From Candidatus Aenigmatarchaeota archaeon (GTDB lineage Archaea > Aenigmatarchaeota > Aenigmatarchaeia > QMZS01), in NCBI GenBank assembly GCA_016932615.1, contig JAFGCN010000003.1, forward strand, positions 1 through 59,614: 59,614 nucleotides of DNA, in the 5' to 3' direction. Shown piece after piece: positions 22,197 to 51,714 of this stretch (the stretch's first letter is position 1; each line of letters starts with the position of its first letter). The translations under genes were made by a program, and so were the position numbers. The notes beneath the pieces were generated by a model that saw only the letters and a list, made by a program, of their open reading frames with translations, was not told the DNA's origin and made no database searches.

Positions 22197-22610
22197 TTAC
22201 TTTTGCTCCTTAATGGCGTTATATATAAGATTTGGGACTTCCCAGTCGGCTGAAATTAGCTTCAATTTTCCTATCTCGGAAAAGCTGTATAATTTCATGC
22301 CATTTCCTTCCAGAACCCGGAAGTTCTTCATTTTGCCCTCAAGGGGGCTCAAGAAGATATAACAATCGAGGCAGCTTCCATCAACAAGAGCGGATTTGCA
22401 GTTTCCAAGGTACTGAATGTCTTCAAGGTCATAGTCGAGCTCTTCTTTGGTTTCCCTGACAATTGCCTCTTCCGGAGTCTCACCTTTCTCGATGCCCCCT
22501 CCAAAAAAGCCCCACTCCTCGCCATATTTGGACATGCCGCGACGATCCTGGAGCAGTATCCTGCCTTCTTCATCATAGAAGGATATCAGCGCGATTTTTT
22601 GGACTTTCAT
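22197..22610 (-). CDS. Nudix hydrolase
   Basis: 137 residues with the Nudix box G-x5-E-x7-RET-KEEL (GGIEKGETPEEAIVRETKEEL), where the usual Gly after EE is Asp. It hydrolyses nucleoside diphosphates linked to another group; the substrate is not predictable. The start overlaps a divergent reading frame, but the divergent gene more likely starts at 22653, leaving a 42-base shared promoter region. Confidence 0.88.
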   Translation of the reverse strand: MKVQKIALISFYDEEGRILLQDRRGMSKYGEEWGFFGGGIEKGETPEEAIVRETKEELDYDLEDIQYLGNCKSALVDGSCLDCYIFLSPLEGKMKNFRVLEGNGMKLYSFSEIGKLKLISADWEVPNLIYNAIKEQK

Positions 22611-22652
22611 AACAGTAAGCCCATTGCAAATAATATCTGGCTACCTGTATTT

Positions 22653-23063
22653 ATGGGAGAAGCTTCTTTTCTTGAAAAATACGGGCCAGAAATTCTCGAG
22701 GTTATGCGAGAGAAAAGGATCAATGTCTATGACTGTTCTGAATTTGCAGGACGTGAAGACTTGACTGCAGAGGATACAATTCGCTTGGGTCCTGCTAAGA
22801 ACCTAGAGGTAGGTCACCGTTATGTATTCCTGCCGGATGCAGCCAACCCAGCCGACCCCCCAGGAGTTTTTGCGGCTCTTGAAAGATACGCTATTCAGCT
22901 TCAAAGAAGAGGTCCAACTGTAAGCTGCTTTGGAGAAGACCTGCCTTGCATAGGATTTACTCCGCATGAAACAGGCATAACCGTTACCACCGAATGTCCC
23001 TTTGGCCTCCCTTACTGGATGGCGGCTTCTGTCTTAAGAACCTTGCCTAAATTTGAGGCGTAA
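22653..23063 (+). CDS. Hypothetical protein
   Basis: 136 residues from the ATG at 22653; an in-frame TTG at 22599 would overlap the divergent Nudix gene. TATA-like AAATAATATC (about 22628-22637) lies 16-25 bases upstream and supports 22653. Soluble alpha/beta protein with a glycine/threonine-rich C-terminal strand and a final helix; no family recognised. Confidence 0.55.
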   Translation: MGEASFLEKYGPEILEVMREKRINVYDCSEFAGREDLTAEDTIRLGPAKNLEVGHRYVFLPDAANPADPPGVFAALERYAIQLQRRGPTVSCFGEDLPCIGFTPHETGITVTTECPFGLPYWMAASVLRTLPKFEA

Positions 23064-33375: not shown

Positions 33376-33470
33376 ATAACTTAATTAGCCGTTGCTTTTT
33401 TAAGTGACCTTTTTTGGCGGAAAAACACCCTCCAAATGCAGTAATATACGATTTTGCCGGAAGGTTATCT

Positions 33471-35324
33471 ATGAAGGAAGGGCTTTCGACCCGGAGGATG
33501 AGGAAAAAGAAGGAGAGTTCCAGTAAATATGAGGAAATCCCGCGGGAAGTCAAGACAGGGGGACAGTACCTTACTTACCTGATTGTAGGCGGTTTTGGAG
33601 TCCTGATTAACCTTGCAATTACATTTGCCCTCTCAGAGTTCTTCCTTGGGCGGCAGCTCTACCTGCAGGCATTTGCCATCGGAACCTGCGTAAACTTAAT
33701 CTACAATTTCATTTTTTATTCCCGCTTTGTGTTCAGGAGCGGGCAGATTTCCGGTGAAAACCGCAATTTTTTCTTCATATTCAGCATAACTTCCGTTTTT
33801 GGGCAGATTTTTTCAAGCAAAATTGTCGTGGATTTCCTGGGGCTGGACTATTATATTTTTGGAATCGCTTCGGTGATCCTTGCGTTTTCCCTTATCAGCT
33901 TTTTCATGTTTAAAAAATATGTTTTTGTCTCTAAGCGGATAATCCCGAGGACTTACGCAATTTATGCGGTTTTCCTGGCAGTGGTGCTGATGCTGCGGAT
34001 TGCCTCGATGGGCGGGTTTGTTTTTTGGGACGAGGCGATTTACGTGGGTATGGGGAAGTATTTCTATTCAAACGAGCAACTAGGGCTTTTTGAGGATTTC
34101 CGGCCCCCCCTTCTACCAGTCATTCTCGGCTTTGCCTGGTCTAACGGAATAGACTCGATTGTTTTTGGTAAGGTTCTTGCGCTTATCTTAAGCGCGTCTT
34201 CGGTTTACCTTGTCTATCTCATCGGGAGGGAATTATTCAATGAGCGTGTTGGAGTATTGGCGGCTCTGATGCTTGCGGTTTCACCGACATTTATCTTCTA
34301 CGGGACGAGGATACTCACAGATAACTTTTCCCTCTTCTTTGTCCTGCTCGCGTTTTACCTGCATATATGGAAGCGGAATCCCATTCTTTCCGGCTTTGTC
34401 GCGGGGGTCGGTGTTCTGGTAAGGTTCACAGGCGGGCTTGTCCTGCTACCCATAGCCATGTTTGAGGTTTTTGAGTTTCTCAGGCACAGAAAAGGGCTTG
34501 AGCTATTCAGGAATATATTTTACCTGGGACTTGCGTTTCTCATACCCCTGGCACCATACCTGATGTACAATTACGGGCTTTACGGAAATCCTGTGCACGG
34601 GTTTATTGAGGGAGTGAAGATAATCGGCCTTGTTGGAGCATCTTTTCAGGATCCGGCATGGTACTATGCAGCGGGGCTTCTCGGAGAGTCTGTGTTTTCT
34701 TTTGTGTTCCTTCTTGGACTTGGGTTTCTGGCCCGGGACGGAAAGGGGACAAACAAATATGCCTTCCTCTGCGCCCTTTTCGCTCTTGCAAGCATCTTCT
34801 ACTTTTCGACACTTGGCAGAAAGGAGATGAGGTACACGATTGCCACGCTTCCCTTTATCTATATTGTCTCTGCCTATGCGCTTGACCGGCTCAAGCTAAG
34901 CGACGTTTCAAAGAAAGGAATACTTCTTGTCTGGCTGCTCCTTGCCCTTTTCCAGGGTGTCGTTGGCTCCATGGCTTACCACACTTATATGGTTGCGCCG
35001 TATGACGAGGACCTGTACCAGAATTACTACCACAAACAATCTTCGGGGCTTGTGGTTTTGTCTGACCCCGTTCCGATTGCCTACTCTGACTTTAATCATG
35101 AGATTATCTATCGGATAGGGCCGGATATGTACAGATACTACGAAATTATGGAGCCATCCGAGTACCGCATCAACACCTGCGAGCCGTTCTGCCCGCCGGC
35201 AGATATAAATTGCGAGGAGAACCGGAACAATTTCATAAGCAAGCTGAAGCTCTACCTCAACACGGTCTTCTATAAAGAAGTAAATGGGTGTGAATATTAT
35301 GTCTTCGCCAGGAGATCTTCTTAG
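33471..35324 (+). CDS. GtrA domain - ArnT/PMT-like GT-C glycosyltransferase fusion
   Basis: 617 residues from the ATG at 33471; TATA-like TAATATACG (33442-33450) excludes the earlier TTG at 33414. Residues about 20-145 are a four-helix GtrA domain (VGGFGVLINLAITFALSEFFLG). The rest is a membrane GT-C enzyme of the GT39/GT83 type: FWDEAIYVGMGKY carries the catalytic Asp-Glu after the first helix, followed by RPPLLPVI and GRELFNERVG. It would transfer a sugar from a polyprenyl phosphate donor outside the membrane. First gene of a probable operon with UbiA, PAP2 and GtrA genes. Confidence 0.85.
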   Translation: MKEGLSTRRMRKKKESSSKYEEIPREVKTGGQYLTYLIVGGFGVLINLAITFALSEFFLGRQLYLQAFAIGTCVNLIYNFIFYSRFVFRSGQISGENRNFFFIFSITSVFGQIFSSKIVVDFLGLDYYIFGIASVILAFSLISFFMFKKYVFVSKRIIPRTYAIYAVFLAVVLMLRIASMGGFVFWDEAIYVGMGKYFYSNEQLGLFEDFRPPLLPVILGFAWSNGIDSIVFGKVLALILSASSVYLVYLIGRELFNERVGVLAALMLAVSPTFIFYGTRILTDNFSLFFVLLAFYLHIWKRNPILSGFVAGVGVLVRFTGGLVLLPIAMFEVFEFLRHRKGLELFRNIFYLGLAFLIPLAPYLMYNYGLYGNPVHGFIEGVKIIGLVGASFQDPAWYYAAGLLGESVFSFVFLLGLGFLARDGKGTNKYAFLCALFALASIFYFSTLGRKEMRYTIATLPFIYIVSAYALDRLKLSDVSKKGILLVWLLLALFQGVVGSMAYHTYMVAPYDEDLYQNYYHKQSSGLVVLSDPVPIAYSDFNHEIIYRIGPDMYRYYEIMEPSEYRINTCEPFCPPADINCEENRNNFISKLKLYLNTVFYKEVNGCEYYVFARRSS

Positions 35325-36696: not shown

Positions 36697-37140
36697 ATGA
36701 TTATGGTAAGGGGAAGCCTGAGCATAAAAGACCGGATAAGAGACGGCATATTCTGCTACTTTGGAGCCCAGTTCATAAAATATAACCTTCTGGGCATGAT
36801 TGGCTTTTTGCTTAACCTGGGAGCTACCTTTGCGCTGGCGGAATTTTTTCTTGGGCGTGAAAGTTACCTTGTTGCCTTTTTAATAGGAAACATAATCAAC
36901 ACGTTTTATAACTATCTGGTTTATGTCAGGCATGTCTTTCCTGTAAAGGGGCTTAGTGACGTCAAGAAGGCTTTTTTCTTCGTCTATTCGGGAGGGGTCA
37001 TACTCTTGCAGATGTTTTTTGCAGACAGGATTGTATTGTTCGTGGGGCTTGATTGGTACCTTCCCGTTCTGGCCTTGGTGATTGGCGCAATCGGCACATT
37101 CAGCTACTTTGTGTTCAAAAGTCACTTGTTTACTTCCTGA
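36697..37140 (+). CDS. GtrA-family membrane protein
   Basis: 147 residues, four transmembrane helices: KYNLLGMIGFLLNLGATFAL, then two pairs of helices ending FVFKSHLF. GtrA proteins help move polyprenyl-phosphate sugars across the membrane; the mycobacterial Rv3789 relative works beside DPPR synthase. It is clearly related to the N-terminal domain of the fusion protein at 33471. It follows the PAP2 gene by 25 bases; the ATG at 36703 is an alternative start. Confidence 0.85.
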   Translation: MIMVRGSLSIKDRIRDGIFCYFGAQFIKYNLLGMIGFLLNLGATFALAEFFLGRESYLVAFLIGNIINTFYNYLVYVRHVFPVKGLSDVKKAFFFVYSGGVILLQMFFADRIVLFVGLDWYLPVLALVIGAIGTFSYFVFKSHLFTS

Positions 37141-42846: not shown

Positions 42847-43728
42847 ATGTCAGAAAGCTCAGAGGTTCAGGCGTACGCGAACAAGTTCACAGAGAGCGTG
42901 GTTTCCGGCGCTCCTGCAATCAGCGCAGGCGACAATTTCAGCCCTTATACTTCAGGAGTCCCAAAGGACTACCAGAAAGGGCTTATTGCCATTTCAAACA
43001 GGATAATCCCGGGAGTTTACCCGTTTACTGTCGACCAGTACGACAAGTGCGTCAAGTTCCGGCTTGGAAAATACGTCGGAACCCTTGAGCCGGGGCTTCG
43101 CTGGTATATCCCGGGAATCGATGATATTACCGAGGTTGACATGAGGATTACCCCTATGGACATAAGGACGCAGGAGGTCATTTCTGAGGACAACGTGACG
43201 CTTTACGTCAACGGCGTCGTTTTTTACAGGGTCGAAAGCCCGGAAAAGGCGGTTCTTGGCGTAAGCGACTACAAGGCCGCAGTGGCTCAGCTTGCCCAGT
43301 CGGCTCTTAGGGACATGTGCGGAAAGGCAAACCTTGATGACATCCTGACCAAGAGGGAAGAGCTTGGAAGAAAAATCAAGGAGATTGTCGACAAGGAAAC
43401 TGATGTCTGGGGAATCGACATAGCTGACGTCAAAATTACTGATATTTTCCTGCCTGAAAACATGAAGCGGGCGATGGCAAAGCAGGCGGAAGCCGAAAGG
43501 GAAAGGCGCGCCAAAGTCATTTCAGCCGAAGGCGAAGTCCAGGCGGCAAAGAAGCTCATCGAGGCCGCAAGAACGCTTGAGGGCTCGAAAGTCGCGCAGA
43601 ACCTTCGGGCATACCAGGCACTTGGGGAAATCACAGGGGAAGGAAAGTCCACAATTGTTTTCCCTTACCCGCTTGACCTGTCAGGGATTTCAAATTATCT
43701 TAAGGGGGAGGCAAAGGCCTCGGCGTAA
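42847..43728 (+). CDS. SPFH/Band 7 (stomatin/prohibitin-like) protein without membrane helix
   Basis: 293 residues from the ATG at 42847. The SPFH domain (about 50-230) is clear: IPGVYPFTVDQYDKCV, EPGLRWYIPGID, and the AEAERERRAKVISAEGE helix. Stomatins normally start with a membrane-inserting hairpin; here residues 1-50 are polar, so the protein may be cytosolic or attach through a partner. The next gene starts five bases after its stop, which links it to the paralogue array. Confidence 0.85.
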   Translation: MSESSEVQAYANKFTESVVSGAPAISAGDNFSPYTSGVPKDYQKGLIAISNRIIPGVYPFTVDQYDKCVKFRLGKYVGTLEPGLRWYIPGIDDITEVDMRITPMDIRTQEVISEDNVTLYVNGVVFYRVESPEKAVLGVSDYKAAVAQLAQSALRDMCGKANLDDILTKREELGRKIKEIVDKETDVWGIDIADVKITDIFLPENMKRAMAKQAEAERERRAKVISAEGEVQAAKKLIEAARTLEGSKVAQNLRAYQALGEITGEGKSTIVFPYPLDLSGISNYLKGEAKASA

Positions 43729-43733
43729 ATATT

Positions 43734-44333
43734 ATGGACGGTGATGTTGGAATGGTGATTGAGCTTAAGGGAGATTTTAAGGCCTACGAAGGCCCCTGGG
43801 AGGATATTTCAGACCTTTCCAGGTATTCAAAAAGGGCGCTTCGGGAGTTTGCTCCCAAGACAGGTTTGAGGGATAGAATTGCAAGGAGGGTTGCCGGCTA
43901 TGACGGTTCGCTTAGCAGTGAATTTTTAAGAGGCCTTGAAGTTCCAAAAAGAGGCCAGAGTTTTGAGGATTACAGGGCTTCATATTTCATAGATAAAGAC
44001 ATACCCTTAGGAATTAAGCAGTTCTCTTCGGTTCGGGATTCAGGCGCAAGCCTTTCCTGGGGGAGTGTATTGTCCTATGGAGAAATGGTGGAGATTATGG
44101 CTACCCAAATGAACGTGTTGCAGAATGGGGGTCGTGCTTCAGAGTTTCTTGAGCTAAACCCTGCAGATGCTTTTGTAAGCACTCTACAATTGAAAGAGGA
44201 TTCTTTGAGCATGGGTCTTAGTGGGACAGGCCCCTACAAAAAAACAGCCCTTGAAGTAGGGCACAAGATAGAAGAAAAAGCACGTGACCTGGATATGCGT
44301 ATTTTCAAGAGCCGGAAGCAGTATGGCTATTAG
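43734..44333 (+). CDS. Array family member 1, unknown function
   Basis: 199 residues, probably cotranscribed with the SPFH gene (5-base gap). It shares with the genes at 44445, 45529 and 46106 an N-terminal YxGxWExxSxLxR motif, a middle 'xxVPKRxxSFxDY' segment, and a C-terminal G-x-G-x-Y-x-x-T-A-x-x-V-x-x-I motif followed by a basic helix. LRDRIARRVAGY is nearly identical in member 2. No membrane segment or known domain. I recognise no described family. Confidence 0.65.
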   Translation: MDGDVGMVIELKGDFKAYEGPWEDISDLSRYSKRALREFAPKTGLRDRIARRVAGYDGSLSSEFLRGLEVPKRGQSFEDYRASYFIDKDIPLGIKQFSSVRDSGASLSWGSVLSYGEMVEIMATQMNVLQNGGRASEFLELNPADAFVSTLQLKEDSLSMGLSGTGPYKKTALEVGHKIEEKARDLDMRIFKSRKQYGY

Positions 44334-44343
44334 GAATTAGAGT

Positions 44344-44439
44344 ATGTCAGAAGCAAAAAATATGGGGGCACATTTGGGCGAACTTGAAATGTACAAGGCG
44401 CCACATTATCTTTGGGAACAGGTTAAGGTCTTAGAGTAA
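44344..44439 (+). pseudogene. Truncated array family member, 31 codons
   Basis: A short frame ATG 44344 to TAA 44437-44439 reads a polar start, then LEMYKAPHYLWEQVKVLE. It aligns with the family's YxGxWExxSxL start and then stops. It lies between members 1 and 2 in the same orientation, so it looks like a remnant of an extra copy, though a real 31-residue peptide cannot be excluded. Confidence 0.5.
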
Positions 44440-44444
44440 GCATT

Positions 44445-45014
44445 ATGGGGACAATCTTTAGTGGTTCGTACGGGGGTTCTTGGGAGGAGGTTTCAGAGCT
44501 CCCCAGAACTGCAAGTGGCGCCTTTAAGGAAATTACTCCTGGGACGAAATTAAGGGACAGGATTGCCAGAAAAGTTGCTGGTTATGAGTGTGCGCCCAGT
44601 TGGGCCTTTCAGGAAGGAATCGTCTATCCGGGTACAGACCAGAGCTTTAAGGCATATTCCATGTGTATGCCAAGGGTTGATGGCGGTACCATGGCAGGCC
44701 TTATCGTTAGCTTGACTCATCCAGGATTTGTACCAGCAAGAGGGCACTATTATATTGAGGGAGACTTGCCAAGTGTTTTTAATTTTTCCGTAATCAGGAA
44801 TGAGCCAAAACACCCTTTCCTATCAAGACCTTTCGGCTGTAGCCCCGGAGATACCTTACTGTACTCCCACAATATTGGCGAGGGTTTTTGCAACCTTCGG
44901 CTTATGGGAACCGGACCGTATGAAGAAACCGTTCGTAAGGTGGGCAGTTCGATAGCAGCAAAAGCAAGAGATTTGAGGTTGGATGACCTGGATGAGATAC
45001 CCCATCTGGGCTAA
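44445..45014 (+). CDS. Array family member 2, unknown function
   Basis: 189 residues. Starts MGTIFSGSYGGSWEEVSELPR, then LRDRIARKVAGYE as in member 1, SFKAY in the middle and GTGPYEETVRKVGSSIAAKA near the end. More cysteines than the others (five to six). No known domain; same strand as member 1 and six bases after the truncated copy. Confidence 0.65.
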   Translation: MGTIFSGSYGGSWEEVSELPRTASGAFKEITPGTKLRDRIARKVAGYECAPSWAFQEGIVYPGTDQSFKAYSMCMPRVDGGTMAGLIVSLTHPGFVPARGHYYIEGDLPSVFNFSVIRNEPKHPFLSRPFGCSPGDTLLYSHNIGEGFCNLRLMGTGPYEETVRKVGSSIAAKARDLRLDDLDEIPHLG

Positions 45015-45016
45015 TT

Positions 45017-45454
45017 TTAGGTCCTATTAATCACCGGCTTACTCCTGTAAGCTTTATAGTGTGGGTCTGGCTTTTTTGGGTCAAGTGGTTCCCAGATAAG
45101 TTTATAAGTTCCGCCGCTGGTTGTCAGGGTGGCTTCTTCAAACAGGAATCCTCTCTTGTCTTCAGGTATTGTGGTGTGCTTTAAGGGCACCACACCAATG
45201 CTTTCAACTTTTACTCCGGCCAGCTCTCCCAGTCCTTTTATGGGGGGTTCTTTTGGCGAGTAGGCGCTTGAAACATAGAAGCCATCAGCTGAACCCGGCA
45301 GTATTTCTGGTAGATTTGGGCATCTAAGGTAAAGTGAGGGGTTTTCATTGCCCTCTAGAATAAATCCGTGGTGGCTTTCGGTTGCGCCTACAATTCTTCC
45401 CACAAGTTCTTCTGGAATTTTGACATTACCCCATGAAATGCTTCGATATACCAT
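45017..45454 (-). CDS. Hypothetical protein
   Basis: 145 residues on the opposite strand inside the paralogue array; two bases separate its stop from member 2's stop. Beta-rich, soluble, with Pro- and Gly-rich loops; shares no motif with the array family. An AT-rich region with TATAAATATT-like sequence lies upstream at about 45465-45480. Confidence 0.55.
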   Translation of the reverse strand: MVYRSISWGNVKIPEELVGRIVGATESHHGFILEGNENPSLYLRCPNLPEILPGSADGFYVSSAYSPKEPPIKGLGELAGVKVESIGVVPLKHTTIPEDKRGFLFEEATLTTSGGTYKLIWEPLDPKKPDPHYKAYRSKPVINRT

Positions 45455-45528
45455 AAAGATAGTCTCTAAAATATTTATAACTTTGGGGTGGTTTATATCA
45501 TATTAATCGGCTTTATTAGCGTTTGGTG

Positions 45529-46077
45529 ATGTCATTTATGTTTGAGAAGAAACAAGAATTCTGGGGGACAGGCCTTGAGTGCAGGTTTGGAGGTGACTGG
45601 CAAAAGATGGCAACTTTGAGCAGAATAACTTATAATCAATTGGTCAAGGTGCTTCCCAGGATTCCCACCTACAGCGTTATTCATCCTGAACTGCTCCCGG
45701 GAAAGGTTGGTTCGCCAAGCTTCTTTCTTGAGGGCTACCTTGTACCCAAACGCGAGGAGAGTTTCAGTGATTATCAGGAACGCGCTGCAAATAACGGTCT
45801 GACTACTAGGGATGGTGTGGTCAGGTATATTGACTGCGCCTTTCACACAAACACCCGATTTCCTGCTTTGAAGTCTCGCCTTGGCAAGCCACCTATGGAC
45901 CATTTTTCCTTTCAGTCGGGCATCGGACCGGATAGGTTTGAGCTTAAGATAGAAGGGCTTGGAAATTACGCCCTGCCCGCAGGCCAGGTTGCTTCTGTTG
46001 TTATGAATAATGCCGAATTTGACCCTGGTGTCAAAATAACCTATTTGCGCCCTTCAGAAATGGCTCTTTTTTGCTGA
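45529..46077 (+). CDS. Array family member 3, unknown function
   Basis: 182 residues from the ATG at 45529 (TATA-like TATATTAATC about 25 bases upstream; the in-frame TTG at 45523 is rejected). FGGDWQKMATLSR, LVPKREESFSDYQ and GLGNYALPAGQVASVVM place it in the same family as the genes at 43734, 44445 and 46106. The middle differs, and a C-terminal basic helix is missing. No known domain. Confidence 0.6.
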   Translation: MSFMFEKKQEFWGTGLECRFGGDWQKMATLSRITYNQLVKVLPRIPTYSVIHPELLPGKVGSPSFFLEGYLVPKREESFSDYQERAANNGLTTRDGVVRYIDCAFHTNTRFPALKSRLGKPPMDHFSFQSGIGPDRFELKIEGLGNYALPAGQVASVVMNNAEFDPGVKITYLRPSEMALFC

Positions 46078-46105
46078 AATTTATTAATTCTTAGTGGTTA
46101 TTTTT

Positions 46106-46672
46106 ATGGCAGGAATAGGTTCGGGAAAAGTAGGATTGCTTGCCTACAGGGGCTATTGGGAGAATGTTTCTGGTCTCGCAAGAGAGACTCGAGGTATTTT
46201 GGATAAGTATCGGAATGAAATGCCCCGGTATAGTATACAGAGTTCCAACTTTGGGCATCCATTTGTGATTGCGGCTGGCTTAAGTGAGAAAAATAAGGTA
46301 CCATTCCTTAAAGATTTAAGGGTGCCAGAAGAGGAGCAGAGTTTTAAGGTTTACTGTCTAAGTCTGGGTTTTGATCCGCCCAAGGGATCCAAGGGTGGGC
46401 TGACACAAGTAGACACTGGTGGAAATATTGAAGCCCTACTTGGTGGTTTTAAAGAGGTGGGAGAAGATGTAACTGTAGACCTGATGCGGGTTGGTCTTAG
46501 ATTGAGTCCAAAGCTCTATGAGACACTTCTTATTGGTTTTGGCAATTACGAATCGACCGCAGAAAAAATCGCTTCCGAAATTCTTGATGCAGCAAAAGAA
46601 AGGAATATGGAGCCACTTAAGATGAAGCGGTCTGGTGGGATTGGTCGGACACTGAGAGGTCTTTTTAATTGA
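46106..46672 (+). CDS. Array family member 4, unknown function
   Basis: 188 residues from the ATG at 46106; TATA-like TTTATTAATT at 46080-46089. YRGYWENVSGLAR, RVPEEEQSFKVYC and GFGNYESTAEKIASEILDAA carry the three family motifs. It has a basic C-terminus. The next gene's longest frame overlaps its stop, but that gene probably starts at 46711. Confidence 0.65.
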   Translation: MAGIGSGKVGLLAYRGYWENVSGLARETRGILDKYRNEMPRYSIQSSNFGHPFVIAAGLSEKNKVPFLKDLRVPEEEQSFKVYCLSLGFDPPKGSKGGLTQVDTGGNIEALLGGFKEVGEDVTVDLMRVGLRLSPKLYETLLIGFGNYESTAEKIASEILDAAKERNMEPLKMKRSGGIGRTLRGLFN

Positions 46673-46710: not shown

Positions 46711-47382
46711 ATGGCCTACAAGCTTTCACCGTCTAGCTTATCCCTGATGGAGGATTGCCCAAGGTGCTTTTGGATTCACTTCAACAGGCACAAGCAGAGG
46801 CCGCAGGGGATTTTTCCGTCTCTGCCTTCGGGAATGGACAGGATTTTGAAGGAGCATTTTGACAGGTTCATGGAGCGGGGCGAGCTTCCGCCGGAACTCC
46901 GGGAAAACGGTAGCTGCAACGGATTTCGCCTCTTTGACAATAAGGGCCTTTTAAAAGTCTGGAGAAACAATTTCCGGGGGATTTCCTGGGCTGACAGCGA
47001 GGAAAACATCCTGCACGGGGCGGTCGATAACATCATGGTTAATGGAAATAAGCTTATAGTTCTTGACTACAAGACGCGGGGCTTTCCTTTGAAGGAGGAC
47101 ACGGCAGAGCACTACCGAAACCAGCTTGACCTGTACAATTTCCTGCTCCGGAAAAACGGGTTTGAAACTGAGGACTTTGCATTCCTTCTGTTTTATGTCC
47201 CAAGGGAGGTCCTTGACAGCGGCTCAGTTGTTTTCGACACGACTCTTGTCAGGATGAATGTAAGCGTGGAAAACGCGGCAAAGATCTGGAACCGCGCGAT
47301 TTCCCTCCTTAAAGGCCCCTGCCCGGAGAATGGGGGCGAGAAGGAATGCGAGTGGTGCCGGCTTCTGGAGGTACCCGACTGA
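46711..47382 (+). CDS. RecB/Cas4-like PD-(D/E)XK nuclease
   Basis: 223 residues from the ATG at 46711 (TATA-like CTATTTTTAC 22 bases upstream). The nuclease core has HGAVDNIMV and then IVLDYKTRG, the D...DYK of the PD-(D/E)XK fold, and a QLDLYNFLL helix typical of RecB/Cas4 relatives. A Cys near the start (CPRCFW) and a C-terminal C...CEWC could bind a 4Fe-4S cluster as in Cas4. No CRISPR array or cas genes lie in the window, so a repair role is more likely. Confidence 0.75.
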   Translation: MAYKLSPSSLSLMEDCPRCFWIHFNRHKQRPQGIFPSLPSGMDRILKEHFDRFMERGELPPELRENGSCNGFRLFDNKGLLKVWRNNFRGISWADSEENILHGAVDNIMVNGNKLIVLDYKTRGFPLKEDTAEHYRNQLDLYNFLLRKNGFETEDFAFLLFYVPREVLDSGSVVFDTTLVRMNVSVENAAKIWNRAISLLKGPCPENGGEKECEWCRLLEVPD

Positions 47383-47856: not shown

Positions 47857-47964
47857 GAATCTCTTCCCTGACCCGTGTCGCCAGAAATCTTCATTTCAGG
47901 TTATATCTCTGGCAATGTATTCTCGTCTTCCGGCACCTTTCTAAGTATCTTTCGTTTGCAAGTT

Positions 47965-48381
47965 ATGGGAACAACAACGCTTAATCTAGGACCCAAAGAA
48001 GTTGAAGACAGAGTTTCGGCATACCTCGGTAGATGGGGCAATGATCGGAGAGTAGAATTTTACGACCAGACGGGCAAGTGGGCGATAATGTGCGGCACCG
48101 GGCGGACGGGTGAGGAAGGCAAAAGCGCAAGCTATCGTTTGCCTATAGAAGAGGTCAGTGGAACCTTTGCCGATGCTGTTCGACGTGCAGTAGCCCTGGA
48201 TGAGTTCTACGGAAGGCCTTTTGATGAAACCCTCTATAACGCGGGAGGAACTACAAGCGGATGGGTTAGGCCATTGGAATCCGAAGGAACTTCCTTGCTT
48301 CCGATTACTCCCAAAGAACTTAAAGCTAGGGGTGGCGAACTTGGCTTTCTTTTGCCCGAGTATGTGGCTCAGCTCGGCTAG
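47965..48381 (+). CDS. Hypothetical protein
   Basis: 138 residues from the ATG at 47965; the longer frame to 47875 has no promoter-like sequence for its start. Soluble alpha/beta, with RRVEFYDQTGKWAIMCGTG as its main strand pair and a helical C-terminus. No family recognised. TATA-like AAGTATCTTT lies about 20 bases upstream. Confidence 0.5.
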   Translation: MGTTTLNLGPKEVEDRVSAYLGRWGNDRRVEFYDQTGKWAIMCGTGRTGEEGKSASYRLPIEEVSGTFADAVRRAVALDEFYGRPFDETLYNAGGTTSGWVRPLESEGTSLLPITPKELKARGGELGFLLPEYVAQLG

Positions 48382-48482
48382 TACTATTGGCAGTTTTTGT
48401 TTGTGTTTTTATGTTGATTTTGGCTTGATTGCTCTGTGAAATCGCCCTCTGGCTTCCAAAACCCGCTTTTTTAGCCCTTTTC

Positions 48483-48501
48483 CCAGGAATGCCTTTCCTG
48501 G
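48483..48501. terminator. Hairpin upstream of eL39
   Basis: CCAGGAA-TGCCT-TTCCTGG is a perfect 7-base stem with 5-base loop. It lies between the gene ending at 48381 and the eL39 promoter, so it could be a 3'-end or processing structure. No T-run follows directly. Confidence 0.35.
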
Positions 48502-48534
48502 CAGGGGCTATTTATTTTTAAAAGAAAGGGTTTT

Positions 48535-48699
48535 ATGGCAACCAAAAAACCTTTGTCCAAGAAACTAAAGCTTATAGCAGTCGCAAAGAAGCCGGCTCCA
48601 CGGTGGTGCGACATAAAGAGATTTGGCTTAAAAAGAGCAAGAGGAAGGAGGATAAGGGCTAACGTCAAGAACTGGAGGCGTGACAAGTACAAGATTTAG
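48535..48699 (+). CDS. rpl39e: Ribosomal protein eL39
   Basis: 54 residues, very basic. It begins MATKKPLSKKLKLIAVAKK, has a Trp (RW) where eL39 has AW, and ends with the NVKNWRRDKYKI segment that matches the family's RHWRRSKLK. It lines part of the large-subunit exit tunnel. A GCTATTTATTTTT box (about 48508-48520) precedes the ATG by about 20 bases. The usual eL31 and aIF6 neighbours are not next to it. Confidence 0.88.
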   Translation: MATKKPLSKKLKLIAVAKKPAPRWCDIKRFGLKRARGRRIRANVKNWRRDKYKI

Positions 48700-48732
48700 A
48701 TTTCCTGCCATTTTCCGTACGGTTTTGAATAT

Positions 48733-49158
48733 ATGGTTCACTATTTAGCTTATCTTACTGGCATGATTGTAAACAGTTTGGTTCTGAAAAATGGGCACGC
48801 TCCAAAGAGACTTTCCTGGATGGATTCAAGAGATGACTGGCAGTATATTGAGATAAGGGGCGGCCAAAATAGGTATCAGGGGCAAAAAGAGTTGATGGAA
48901 TATGTTGTGGAAGTTTTTGGCAAGCTTAGGCCGAAAGCCCAGGTAAGGTGCGATTGCAGTGACGGCTGCCACTTGGAGAACCGGTCAAACCCAATTTCCC
49001 CAATCCCATACTTTTCAGTGGAGGCCTGTGGCGAAAATGGCCTCCTGCTCGTGCCGGAAAATCCCAGAAAGGGTCTTCTCCGCTATATTTCGCGAAGGTT
49101 TGCAGAGGCGGTTTTGACTGATTATCCTCAGGTCATTCCGGAAAGGGCAAGGGCTTAA
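48733..49158 (+). CDS. Hypothetical protein with Cys-rich centre
   Basis: 141 residues in the longest reading; TATA-like CTATTTAG (48742-48749) suggests the ATG at 48763 may be the true start (131 residues). A CDCSDGC cluster near the middle may bind metal. C-terminal helix rich in Arg. No family recognised. Confidence 0.5.
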   Translation: MVHYLAYLTGMIVNSLVLKNGHAPKRLSWMDSRDDWQYIEIRGGQNRYQGQKELMEYVVEVFGKLRPKAQVRCDCSDGCHLENRSNPISPIPYFSVEACGENGLLLVPENPRKGLLRYISRRFAEAVLTDYPQVIPERARA

Positions 49159-49254
49159 ATATTTTCCCAAGATATATGAATGGAATTGGACAGAATATCC
49201 GGGATTAGCGCATTTTTCAAGAGCGGCTTTTTTGTCTGGTTTTTTTAGGAGAAG

Positions 49255-49282
49255 GTAACTTCTTCTAACCTAAGAAAGTTAC
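49255..49282 (+). promoter_or_regulatory. Hairpin immediately before the start codon of 49284
   Basis: GTAACTTCTT (49255-49264) pairs with AAGAAAGTTAC (49272-49282), with one bulged A and a 7-base loop, ending one base before the ATG. In an RNA leader it would sequester the start; as DNA it would be an operator. The preceding TTTTTTTAGGAG could be a ribosome site or promoter element. Confidence 0.4.
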
Positions 49283-49283
49283 T

Positions 49284-49916
49284 ATGAAATGCAGCGACAT
49301 ATCTTCGGGTATCTACGTCAAAAATGAGCGGAGCGGAGTTATTCTCCCGAAAGAGGGCTTGAGGTGCAGCGGAAAACCAATAGCGGGGCTTAAGGAAGGG
49401 CTTAAGGACATGTATGTGGGGCTCGGCTTTTCACACCCTACTGACGGAAAAACTCTCCAGAGAATCCTTTACCAGACCGCAGGCGATTATGGCATGCACC
49501 TGGTCGAAAAGGACCGGAAAGAAGGCCTCAAAATTGTGCCTGTTGAGTACAGGAAAGGGGCGGCAAGGATGCCTGAAGGGGAAGACACAATAGTTGGATA
49601 CTATTCCCCCTTCGCAGACAAGCGCCTCAAGGTGCTGATGCCGGTTGGCGGATATTTTGACCCGTCCTGGACATACGCCCGGCTCTCTTTAGCACACGAG
49701 CCCTGGTACGGTTTGGAGTGGGAAGGGCCGAGGTATTCCATGTTTGGAACCGATGGCCACCTTGCAGGGACTCTTCTGGCAGTGGGCAAAAATATTGCCC
49801 GCAGGGTTGATAAACACGCAGAGATTACAGCGAGAGAGGTTTTACTGCCTATTGCGAAGCTTGACGCATTATCCTTAGGCGGGCCGGGATTCCTGGCTGA
49901 AGCAGCGGGGTTATAG
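49284..49916 (+). CDS. Hypothetical protein
   Basis: 210 residues, soluble, no family recognised. Alternating strands and helices with a GTDGHLAGTLLAVGKNIARRV segment near the C-terminus, a glycine turn plus amphipathic helix that is loosely like the end of the array family (43734-46672), though the similarity is too weak to claim homology. A hairpin lies directly before the start. Confidence 0.55.
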   Translation: MKCSDISSGIYVKNERSGVILPKEGLRCSGKPIAGLKEGLKDMYVGLGFSHPTDGKTLQRILYQTAGDYGMHLVEKDRKEGLKIVPVEYRKGAARMPEGEDTIVGYYSPFADKRLKVLMPVGGYFDPSWTYARLSLAHEPWYGLEWEGPRYSMFGTDGHLAGTLLAVGKNIARRVDKHAEITAREVLLPIAKLDALSLGGPGFLAEAAGL

Positions 49917-49973
49917 CGAGCGCCTTTTATTTTCCTTTCTTTTTGTTTTAATGAAATTCTGCTTAATTGCCTT

Positions 49974-50423
49974 ATGGCTTCTTATTTGCCCGGCAAGGCG
50001 CCGCCCGTTCTTGGCATCGAGATTTCTGAAACCCAAAACCGCCCCACTTACATGAGGACTTTTTCGCCGCTTAAGGTAACGGTCAATTTTCCAAAAGACG
50101 GCCTTGGCAGTTCCAGCGGCGGAATGGATTATATAAGAGGCGCTTTGCTTAAAGCCGTCCCAAACAGCGAAAGATGCGGAAGTTGCAGGGTTGGCGGGGA
50201 GTACATAAGAGAAAATGTAAATGGCAGTTCGACAGACCCCAGAACCAGGTTTTCCATAACAGGGACTTCTGAAGGAGACCGGGATAAGGTAATAATAACC
50301 TGTGAGCATATCCCACCTGACCTTGCTTTGCGCTACCTGGGCAGTTTTCTTGGGGGGCTCGAAACGGACCACGGCAATAAAATTCCGATAACCGGAAGGA
50401 ATCTTTTGGGCGGGAAGACTTAG
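49974..50423 (+). CDS. Hypothetical protein
   Basis: 149 residues, soluble. CGSC near the middle may be a metal or redox site, and the C-terminus is Gly-rich and basic. TATA-like GTTTTAATG (about 49945-49953) precedes the ATG by 21-29 bases. No family recognised. Confidence 0.5.
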   Translation: MASYLPGKAPPVLGIEISETQNRPTYMRTFSPLKVTVNFPKDGLGSSSGGMDYIRGALLKAVPNSERCGSCRVGGEYIRENVNGSSTDPRTRFSITGTSEGDRDKVIITCEHIPPDLALRYLGSFLGGLETDHGNKIPITGRNLLGGKT

Positions 50424-50475: not shown

Positions 50476-51714
50476 ATGAAGGACATTGTTTATTGCAAAA
50501 CCCCCGCCGAATGGCTGAGAGTCAGTGAGAATCTGGAAGACCCAGTCCACATACCCCTAAACAGGATAATAATCAACTATGAAGGGAGCGACGGTAAAGG
50601 AAGCATTTATCAGGACTTGGACCAGCTTCCTATTGTCGCAAGGCTTAATGACATAAGCCAACTGGGACTAGCTGACCGGTGTACCAAGAGCATCCAGGCC
50701 TGTGGAACCCGATATGGGCACTCAATCATATGCGCAAGCAAGATTGACCGCTTGGCCCAGATACATGACCTTGACAGGGAGCTTGGCGTTTGTGCCGGCA
50801 TGACACACGATGTCGCTACGCCACCCCGTTCAGACTCTTCTGCAGTGGGATTGTCATTAAGCGACGAAGGATGGTTCGGGTATGTTATTGACCAGTGCCC
50901 TGAGCTTGATGCCCTGCTGGACAAATATTCTGTTTCAAGGGGCGAGCTTGTCGATGCGGTTAGGGGCAGAGGCAAGAACCCGATAACGCAGCTTATCAAC
51001 CGCCCCGGCTCTCTTGATGTAGACCGCTGTAGTTATACGGCATATGACTCGCAAAATCTTGGCATGGTCCCGTGGGGCTGTATTGAGGCACAACCAGACC
51101 CTTTCAGCAGTATTGATTTGTACAATGGCGAGATTGTTTTCCTGGACCCTGATTCCGTCGCCAAGTGCCTGGACTCAAGAGTGAACTTGTTTGAGAGGTT
51201 CTATAAGAATCCCTGCCTCAGGGCCAAGGAAGCGTTTGCGGGGGAAGTGGCAAGGGAGTTGATGGACAAAGGAATAATCGACCACAAGTCGATTTTCAGA
51301 ATGGTCGATGTGGAGTACGATAAGCTGGTTTTGAAGCATGGAGGAATACTTGGAGAGCGTCTGTATCGGCTTGATGGATTTGACTCGTACGGCTCGGTTC
51401 AGGCAGGCGAAGCCGAACTCAAAGGTCACCTTCAGCAAATTACAGACCGCCCGTTTGTAATCAAGAGGCACAAGGTCTTTGACCCAGGTGTTGAGACACC
51501 AGTTGTGGTAGATGGAACGGTTATGCCCTATCGGGAATGGAACCCGGTGCATGCAGGACAGCTCAAGCGCAGAATGGGAAAGTGGGACCGCACTTTTGTT
51601 TATGGTTATGAGAACGACAAAGTCCTTGAGAGGGCAGTTGATGGTGCCAGAAGAGAGTTTGGCTTTGATGCGGCGACCCGTATGGAGGAAATGATGGAGT
51701 GCTTTGATTCCTGA
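50476..51714 (+). CDS. HD-domain phosphohydrolase, dGTPase/SAMHD1-like
   Basis: 412 residues. The metal-binding HD set is RYGHSIICASKI, then MTHDVATPPRSD about 40 residues on, and an Asp in SLDVDRCSYTAYDS, which corresponds to the 'DxxDxxxRD' segment of dGTPase/SAMHD1-like enzymes. It may therefore hydrolyse dNTPs or another nucleotide. The C-terminal 200 residues are specific to this protein. It lies convergent with the primase gene. Confidence 0.78.
   Translation: MKDIVYCKTPAEWLRVSENLEDPVHIPLNRIIINYEGSDGKGSIYQDLDQLPIVARLNDISQLGLADRCTKSIQACGTRYGHSIICASKIDRLAQIHDLDRELGVCAGMTHDVATPPRSDSSAVGLSLSDEGWFGYVIDQCPELDALLDKYSVSRGELVDAVRGRGKNPITQLINRPGSLDVDRCSYTAYDSQNLGMVPWGCIEAQPDPFSSIDLYNGEIVFLDPDSVAKCLDSRVNLFERFYKNPCLRAKEAFAGEVARELMDKGIIDHKSIFRMVDVEYDKLVLKHGGILGERLYRLDGFDSYGSVQAGEAELKGHLQQITDRPFVIKRHKVFDPGVETPVVVDGTVMPYREWNPVHAGQLKRRMGKWDRTFVYGYENDKVLERAVDGARREFGFDAATRMEEMMECFDS

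Follow-up and report, generated by a model that had tools for sequence, protein, structure and literature searches.

Homology tests show that four neighbouring genes on an aenigmatarchaeal contig encode diverged tandem paralogues of one family. The family is undescribed: it has no convincing match in Pfam, NCBIfam, PHROG or PADLOC, and our literature searches found no published description of such a family. The DNA analysed (hereafter the window) is a contig of 59,614 nucleotides (JAFGCN010000003.1) from a Candidatus Aenigmatarchaeota archaeon, whose MCM helicase and small-primase genes mark it as an archaeon. An earlier note on this DNA had described four intact genes in the same orientation, interrupted by one opposite-strand gene and lying downstream of a soluble SPFH protein. 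This layout was borne out: all four genes (P1-P4) are intact and on the plus strand, a single minus-strand ORF lies among them, and a Band_7/SPFH gene is found directly upstream.

42847..43728, plus strand: SPFH/Band_7 protein (slipin-like, TM-less; Pfam Band_7, E 5e-42), first gene of a putative operon
43734..44333, plus strand: P1 (P0001), family member 1, 199 aa; AF2 model
44344..44439, plus strand: putative 31-codon ORF, from sequence, between P1 and P2 (MSEAKNMGAHLGELEMYKAPHYLWEQVKVLE)
44445..45014, plus strand: P2 (P0002), family member 2, 189 aa; closest to P1
45017..45454, minus strand: P5 (P0005), 145-aa orphan between P2 and P3; not a family member
45523..46077, plus strand: P3 (P0003), family member 3; probable start ATG 45529
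46094..46672, plus strand: P4 (P0004), family member 4; probable start ATG 46106; AF2 model

The probable ATG starts of P3 and P4 replace the TTG/GTG starts originally listed, and SPFH probably starts at ATG 42847, where the ORF finder gave TTG 42814.

Homology and distribution of the family

An all-against-all phmmer comparison of the 219 ORFs in the window linked the four proteins with E-values from 4e-22 to 1.3e-3. The closest pair is P1-P2 (E 4e-22, 34% identity), followed by P1-P4 (1.7e-6), P3-P4 (1.3e-5), P1-P3 (2e-5), P2-P3 (8e-5) and P2-P4 (6e-4 to 1.3e-3). For the five weaker pairs the scores are 13.4-21.9 bits, against 6.4-10.8 bits for the best shuffles. As these pairs outscore all 2,000 shuffles and phmmer links the four proteins, we consider the similarity real. 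The earlier note had held that a lack of significant similarity among the four would speak against a family; instead, every pair is significant, which confirms the proposed family of divergent tandem paralogues. No other ORF in the window matched below E 0.1 in the phmmer comparison. We also considered the nearby orphans at 22599, 48733, 49284 and 49974 as distant members, and rejected them at an hhalign probability below 1% each. The simplest history is that local duplication expanded the array into two pairs, P1/P2 and P3/P4; the P1/P2 grouping follows from identity and both motif spacings (given below), and the P3/P4 grouping from the shorter second spacing.

A profile built from the four proteins matched only P1-P4 in the organism's own 1.26-Mb genome. 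Across the other 155 genomes of the class, which are also the whole phylum set and of which 10 belong to the same family, it gave no credible homologue. Weak matches in the class (E 0.005-0.1) were short, partial and at chance level for that many genomes. A candidate fifth member on contig C4 is Gln/Glu-rich and probably coiled-coil, with a leader-like N-terminus, and was judged a chance match. Further searches, which reach mainly close relatives, found no homologue in genome contigs (pattern-based, with P1), in viral contigs (pattern-based, with the profile, P2 and P4) or in plasmids and phages (tblastn with P2). Stretches around SPFH from five genomes of the same family also lack a counterpart of the array, and the interrupting P5 has no homologues in the 60 genomes searched. 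The safe wording is that the family appears to be restricted to this genus.

P1-P4 are thus a genuine undescribed family, but of an ordinary kind. Like other lineage-restricted tandem orphan families, they are taxonomically restricted, locally duplicated and strongly diverged, with no known domain; they differ in their SPFH linkage only. The array adds a well-delimited family without detectable relatives, and its four copies in two subpairs provide enough diversity to model and test.

Conserved motifs and predicted fold

The three motifs given in the earlier note are shared by all four proteins in the same order, although the strings themselves were partly idealised. P3, for example, reads FGGDWQKMATLSR, and the "TA" following GxGxY is exact in P1 and P4 only. 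The invariant columns are, in order, G-x-W, L, R, F, P, S-F-x-x-Y, D, G-x-G-x-Y and a late A. From GxW to SFxxY the distance is 55 residues in P1, P2 and P3 and 62 in P4, while from SFxxY to GxGxY it is 89 residues in P1 and P2 and 66 in P3 and P4. The C-terminal block is nearly free of gaps (gap fraction 0.02), compared with a gap fraction of 0.60 in the variable stretch between SFxxY and that block. None of the invariant residues is His or Cys (P1 has no Cys at all), and we recognised no catalytic motif in P1-P4. The N-terminal GxW segment was also compared with the C-terminal GxGxY segment as a possible internal repeat; 105 of 150 shuffles scored at least as high in the profile comparison, and the repeat was rejected.

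We modelled P1 and P4 with AlphaFold, both from one four-sequence alignment, and the two models are not independent. The P1 model (mean pLDDT 56.7, pTM 0.64) has the order E12-19, H22-43, insert, E147-153, E157-164, H166-185, E189-197, and the P4 model (mean pLDDT 64.9, pTM 0.67) the order E15-19, H22-38, insert, E126-138, E141-149, H150-169, E173-178. With low to moderate confidence, both proteins are predicted to form a two-layer βα-[insert of ~90-100 residues]-ββαβ plait, with much of the insert below pLDDT 50. In the models, the first strand-helix turn (beta1-alpha1) carries GxW, and the turn leading into the last long helix (beta3-alpha2) carries GxGxY. Since these turns adjoin in a plait, GxW and GxGxY may together make up one patch; SFxxY falls in the low-confidence insert, where its position is uncertain.

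The top VIA neighbour of both models is the AdoMetDC-like domain of human spermine synthase (Z 8.1 and 8.3), followed lower down by AdoMetDCs, designed ferredoxin folds and M20 lid domains. A Z of about 8 is in the range where, according to the tool, a common arrangement alone may explain the score. Foldseek with the P1 and P4 models returned nothing below E 0.03, and predicted viral structures gave no match below E 0.04. The VIA and Foldseek scores are compatible with a common arrangement, without demonstrating kinship. The designed ferredoxin folds and M20 peptidase lids have the β-α-β-β-α-β order predicted for P1 and P4 (Z 5-7), but this is a likeness at the level of the fold only; the insert, the GxW and GxGxY turns and SFxxY are features of P1-P4.

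These neighbours raise the question of whether P1-P4 are enzymes that arose from a plait enzyme, AdoMetDC for example, in which SFxxY would be part of a cryptic active site. The AdoMetDC-like spermine synthase domain (PDB 3c6k) heads both structural lists, prokaryotic AdoMetDCs (2iii, 1vr7) come next at Z ~6-7, and all have a two-layer plait of ~100 residues like that predicted for P1 and P4; the Ser and Tyr of SFxxY are also invariant. However, P1-P4 have no sequence relation to these proteins and lack the pyruvoyl Ser/His/Cys signature, and their long insert after the first helix is absent from both the spermine synthase domain and AdoMetDC. The AdoMetDCs of the class are readily detected (E 1e-22 to 1e-39) and keep the signature ESH..H..W.E...C; this signature is absent from P1-P4, and hhalign against the class AdoMetDCs gave a probability of 0.07%. 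No AdoMetDC was found in the organism's own genome or in the 10 same-family genomes searched, and the Pfam scan of the window had no match to PF02675. Judged by sequence, AdoMetDC chemistry is excluded for P1-P4, and the broader idea of a plait-derived enzyme family seems very unlikely.

The SPFH neighbour and gene organisation

As the earlier note had proposed, the SPFH protein is predicted to be soluble. It has no membrane segment, and its maximum 19-residue hydropathy is 0.87, compared with 1.9-2.7 in 14 homologues. All 14 of these homologues have an N-terminal hydrophobic segment; the SPFH in the window instead has a soluble extension of ~60 residues. Over residues 72-292 it is 59-61% identical to TM-anchored homologues from the same family, and the genome encodes a second, TM-anchored SPFH on another contig (C17). 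Only two of 12 prokaryotic SPFH subfamilies (SPFH8 and SPFH9) have been reported without TM (PMC2636767). The layout recalls SPFH operons with NfeD partners, where a stomatin-type SPFH gene is likewise followed directly by a small gene (PMC2636767). However, P1-P4 have no NfeD match (Pfam, at E 1), and the SPFH here differs from that of NfeD-type operons in being TM-less.

Only 5 nt separate SPFH from P1, 10 nt P1 from the 31-codon ORF, and 5 nt the 31-codon ORF from P2, and because of these short gaps the four genes look like one operon. The 31-codon ORF may encode a small protein or be a mere remnant. TATA-like boxes precede SPFH (TTTAAATA, 28 nt upstream of ATG 42847), P5 (25 nt upstream), P3 (at -37 of ATG 45529) and P4 (at -26 of ATG 46106), with none clear before P1 or P2; the scan used a simple consensus, and such boxes are not evidence on their own. 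P3 and P4 appear to lie outside the SPFH operon, with their own promoters. No RNA family was found at its gathering score, and a sub-threshold match to a fluoride riboswitch, on the minus strand inside P5, was taken as chance.

Possible roles of the family

We tentatively suggest that P1-P4 act in the cytosol as soluble binders or adaptors, each built from a constant plait and a variable insert, with the SPFH oligomer as a possible partner. The proteins would be non-enzymatic; the plait and the two turn motifs would provide a constant framework, for self-association or for a shared partner, and the insert (SFxxY and the length-variable stretch) would diversify the target of each copy. The shared order of secondary structure and the same top structural neighbour, obtained with both P1 and P4 as queries, were counted in favour of this reading. 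The TM-less SPFH oligomer would be the most plausible common partner, at least of P1 and P2, because SPFH, P1, the 31-codon ORF and P2 are only 5-10 nt apart, an adjacency known from one genome only. P3 and P4 would then be diverged, separately regulated versions. Counted against this reading were the low pLDDT of models built from four sequences, the lack of a Foldseek match below E 0.03, the modest VIA scores, the position of P3 and P4 outside the SPFH operon, and the weak codon bias of all four genes, whose expression is putative. Binding by P1-P4 and their partnership with SPFH are thus both inferred. Should the SPFH link be real, the array would represent a soluble stomatin system that has partners of its own, and would help to probe SPFH oligomers off membranes; otherwise, it is one more orphan family in small archaeal genomes. 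A more elaborate version, in which the SPFH has lost its membrane anchor to become a cytosolic ring or cage, onto which the diversifying plait partners P1-P4 dock by their constant face to display their inserts, seems quite improbable.

About as likely as the binder or adaptor reading is ordinary orphan churn, in which a young or fast-diverging gene was duplicated in place a few times, the roles of its copies are individual, minor or decaying, and SPFH lies next to them by chance. Codon bias is weak in all four genes, similar to several other orphan ORFs in the window, the neighbouring ORFs at 47875, 48733 and 49974 are also without a convincing library family, and the separate promoters apparent for P3 and P4 fit this picture too. 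However, four intact frames keep their invariant residues at 25-35% identity, which argues for purifying selection on the fold, and the distance of only 5 nt from SPFH hints at co-transcription.

The earlier note had instead suggested diversification for recognition or of a toxin/immunity type. Tandem paralogues whose ends are constant and whose middle varies in length are indeed compatible with recognition, and one could imagine a defence-like module whose middle diversifies against a changing partner, such as viruses, hosts or kin; a PD-(D/E)XK nuclease gene also follows the array. The toxin/immunity part is without support: we found no toxin domain, no defence-system model, no convincing match in PADLOC, PHROG or NCBIfam, and no secretion or mobile context; the composition of the array resembles the remainder of the window, and P5 is itself an orphan. 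The family is also absent from the viral contigs, plasmids and phages searched, and homologues of the nuclease are present in genomes of the class that lack P1-P4. The four copies have diverged too far for selection to be tested within a single genome. On balance, we consider such a conflict role unlikely.

Several other features of the window were noted. The PD-(D/E)XK nuclease (46711-47382; PDDEXK_1, E 1e-10; PHROG 31195, E 4e-39) has a patchy distribution of homologues in the class, with two copies in one genome. Beyond it, 47875-50423 contains four plus-strand orphan ORFs (47875, 48733, 49284 and 49974) without convincing library families. By eye, the ORFs at 48733, 49974 and 22599-23063 seem to have a strand-helix-strand-strand-helix order like that of P1-P4, with no profile similarity. 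A 412-aa protein at 50476-51714 has a weak HD-domain match (E 0.005, below the cut-off), and the proteins encoded at 33414-35324 and 36697-37140 have a common 125-residue segment with 43% identity. At the contig end, positions 1-87 consist of a perfect 24-bp tandem repeat in 3.6 copies (AACACTACCGTCAATAACACCACA), possibly a coding repeat that is cut there.
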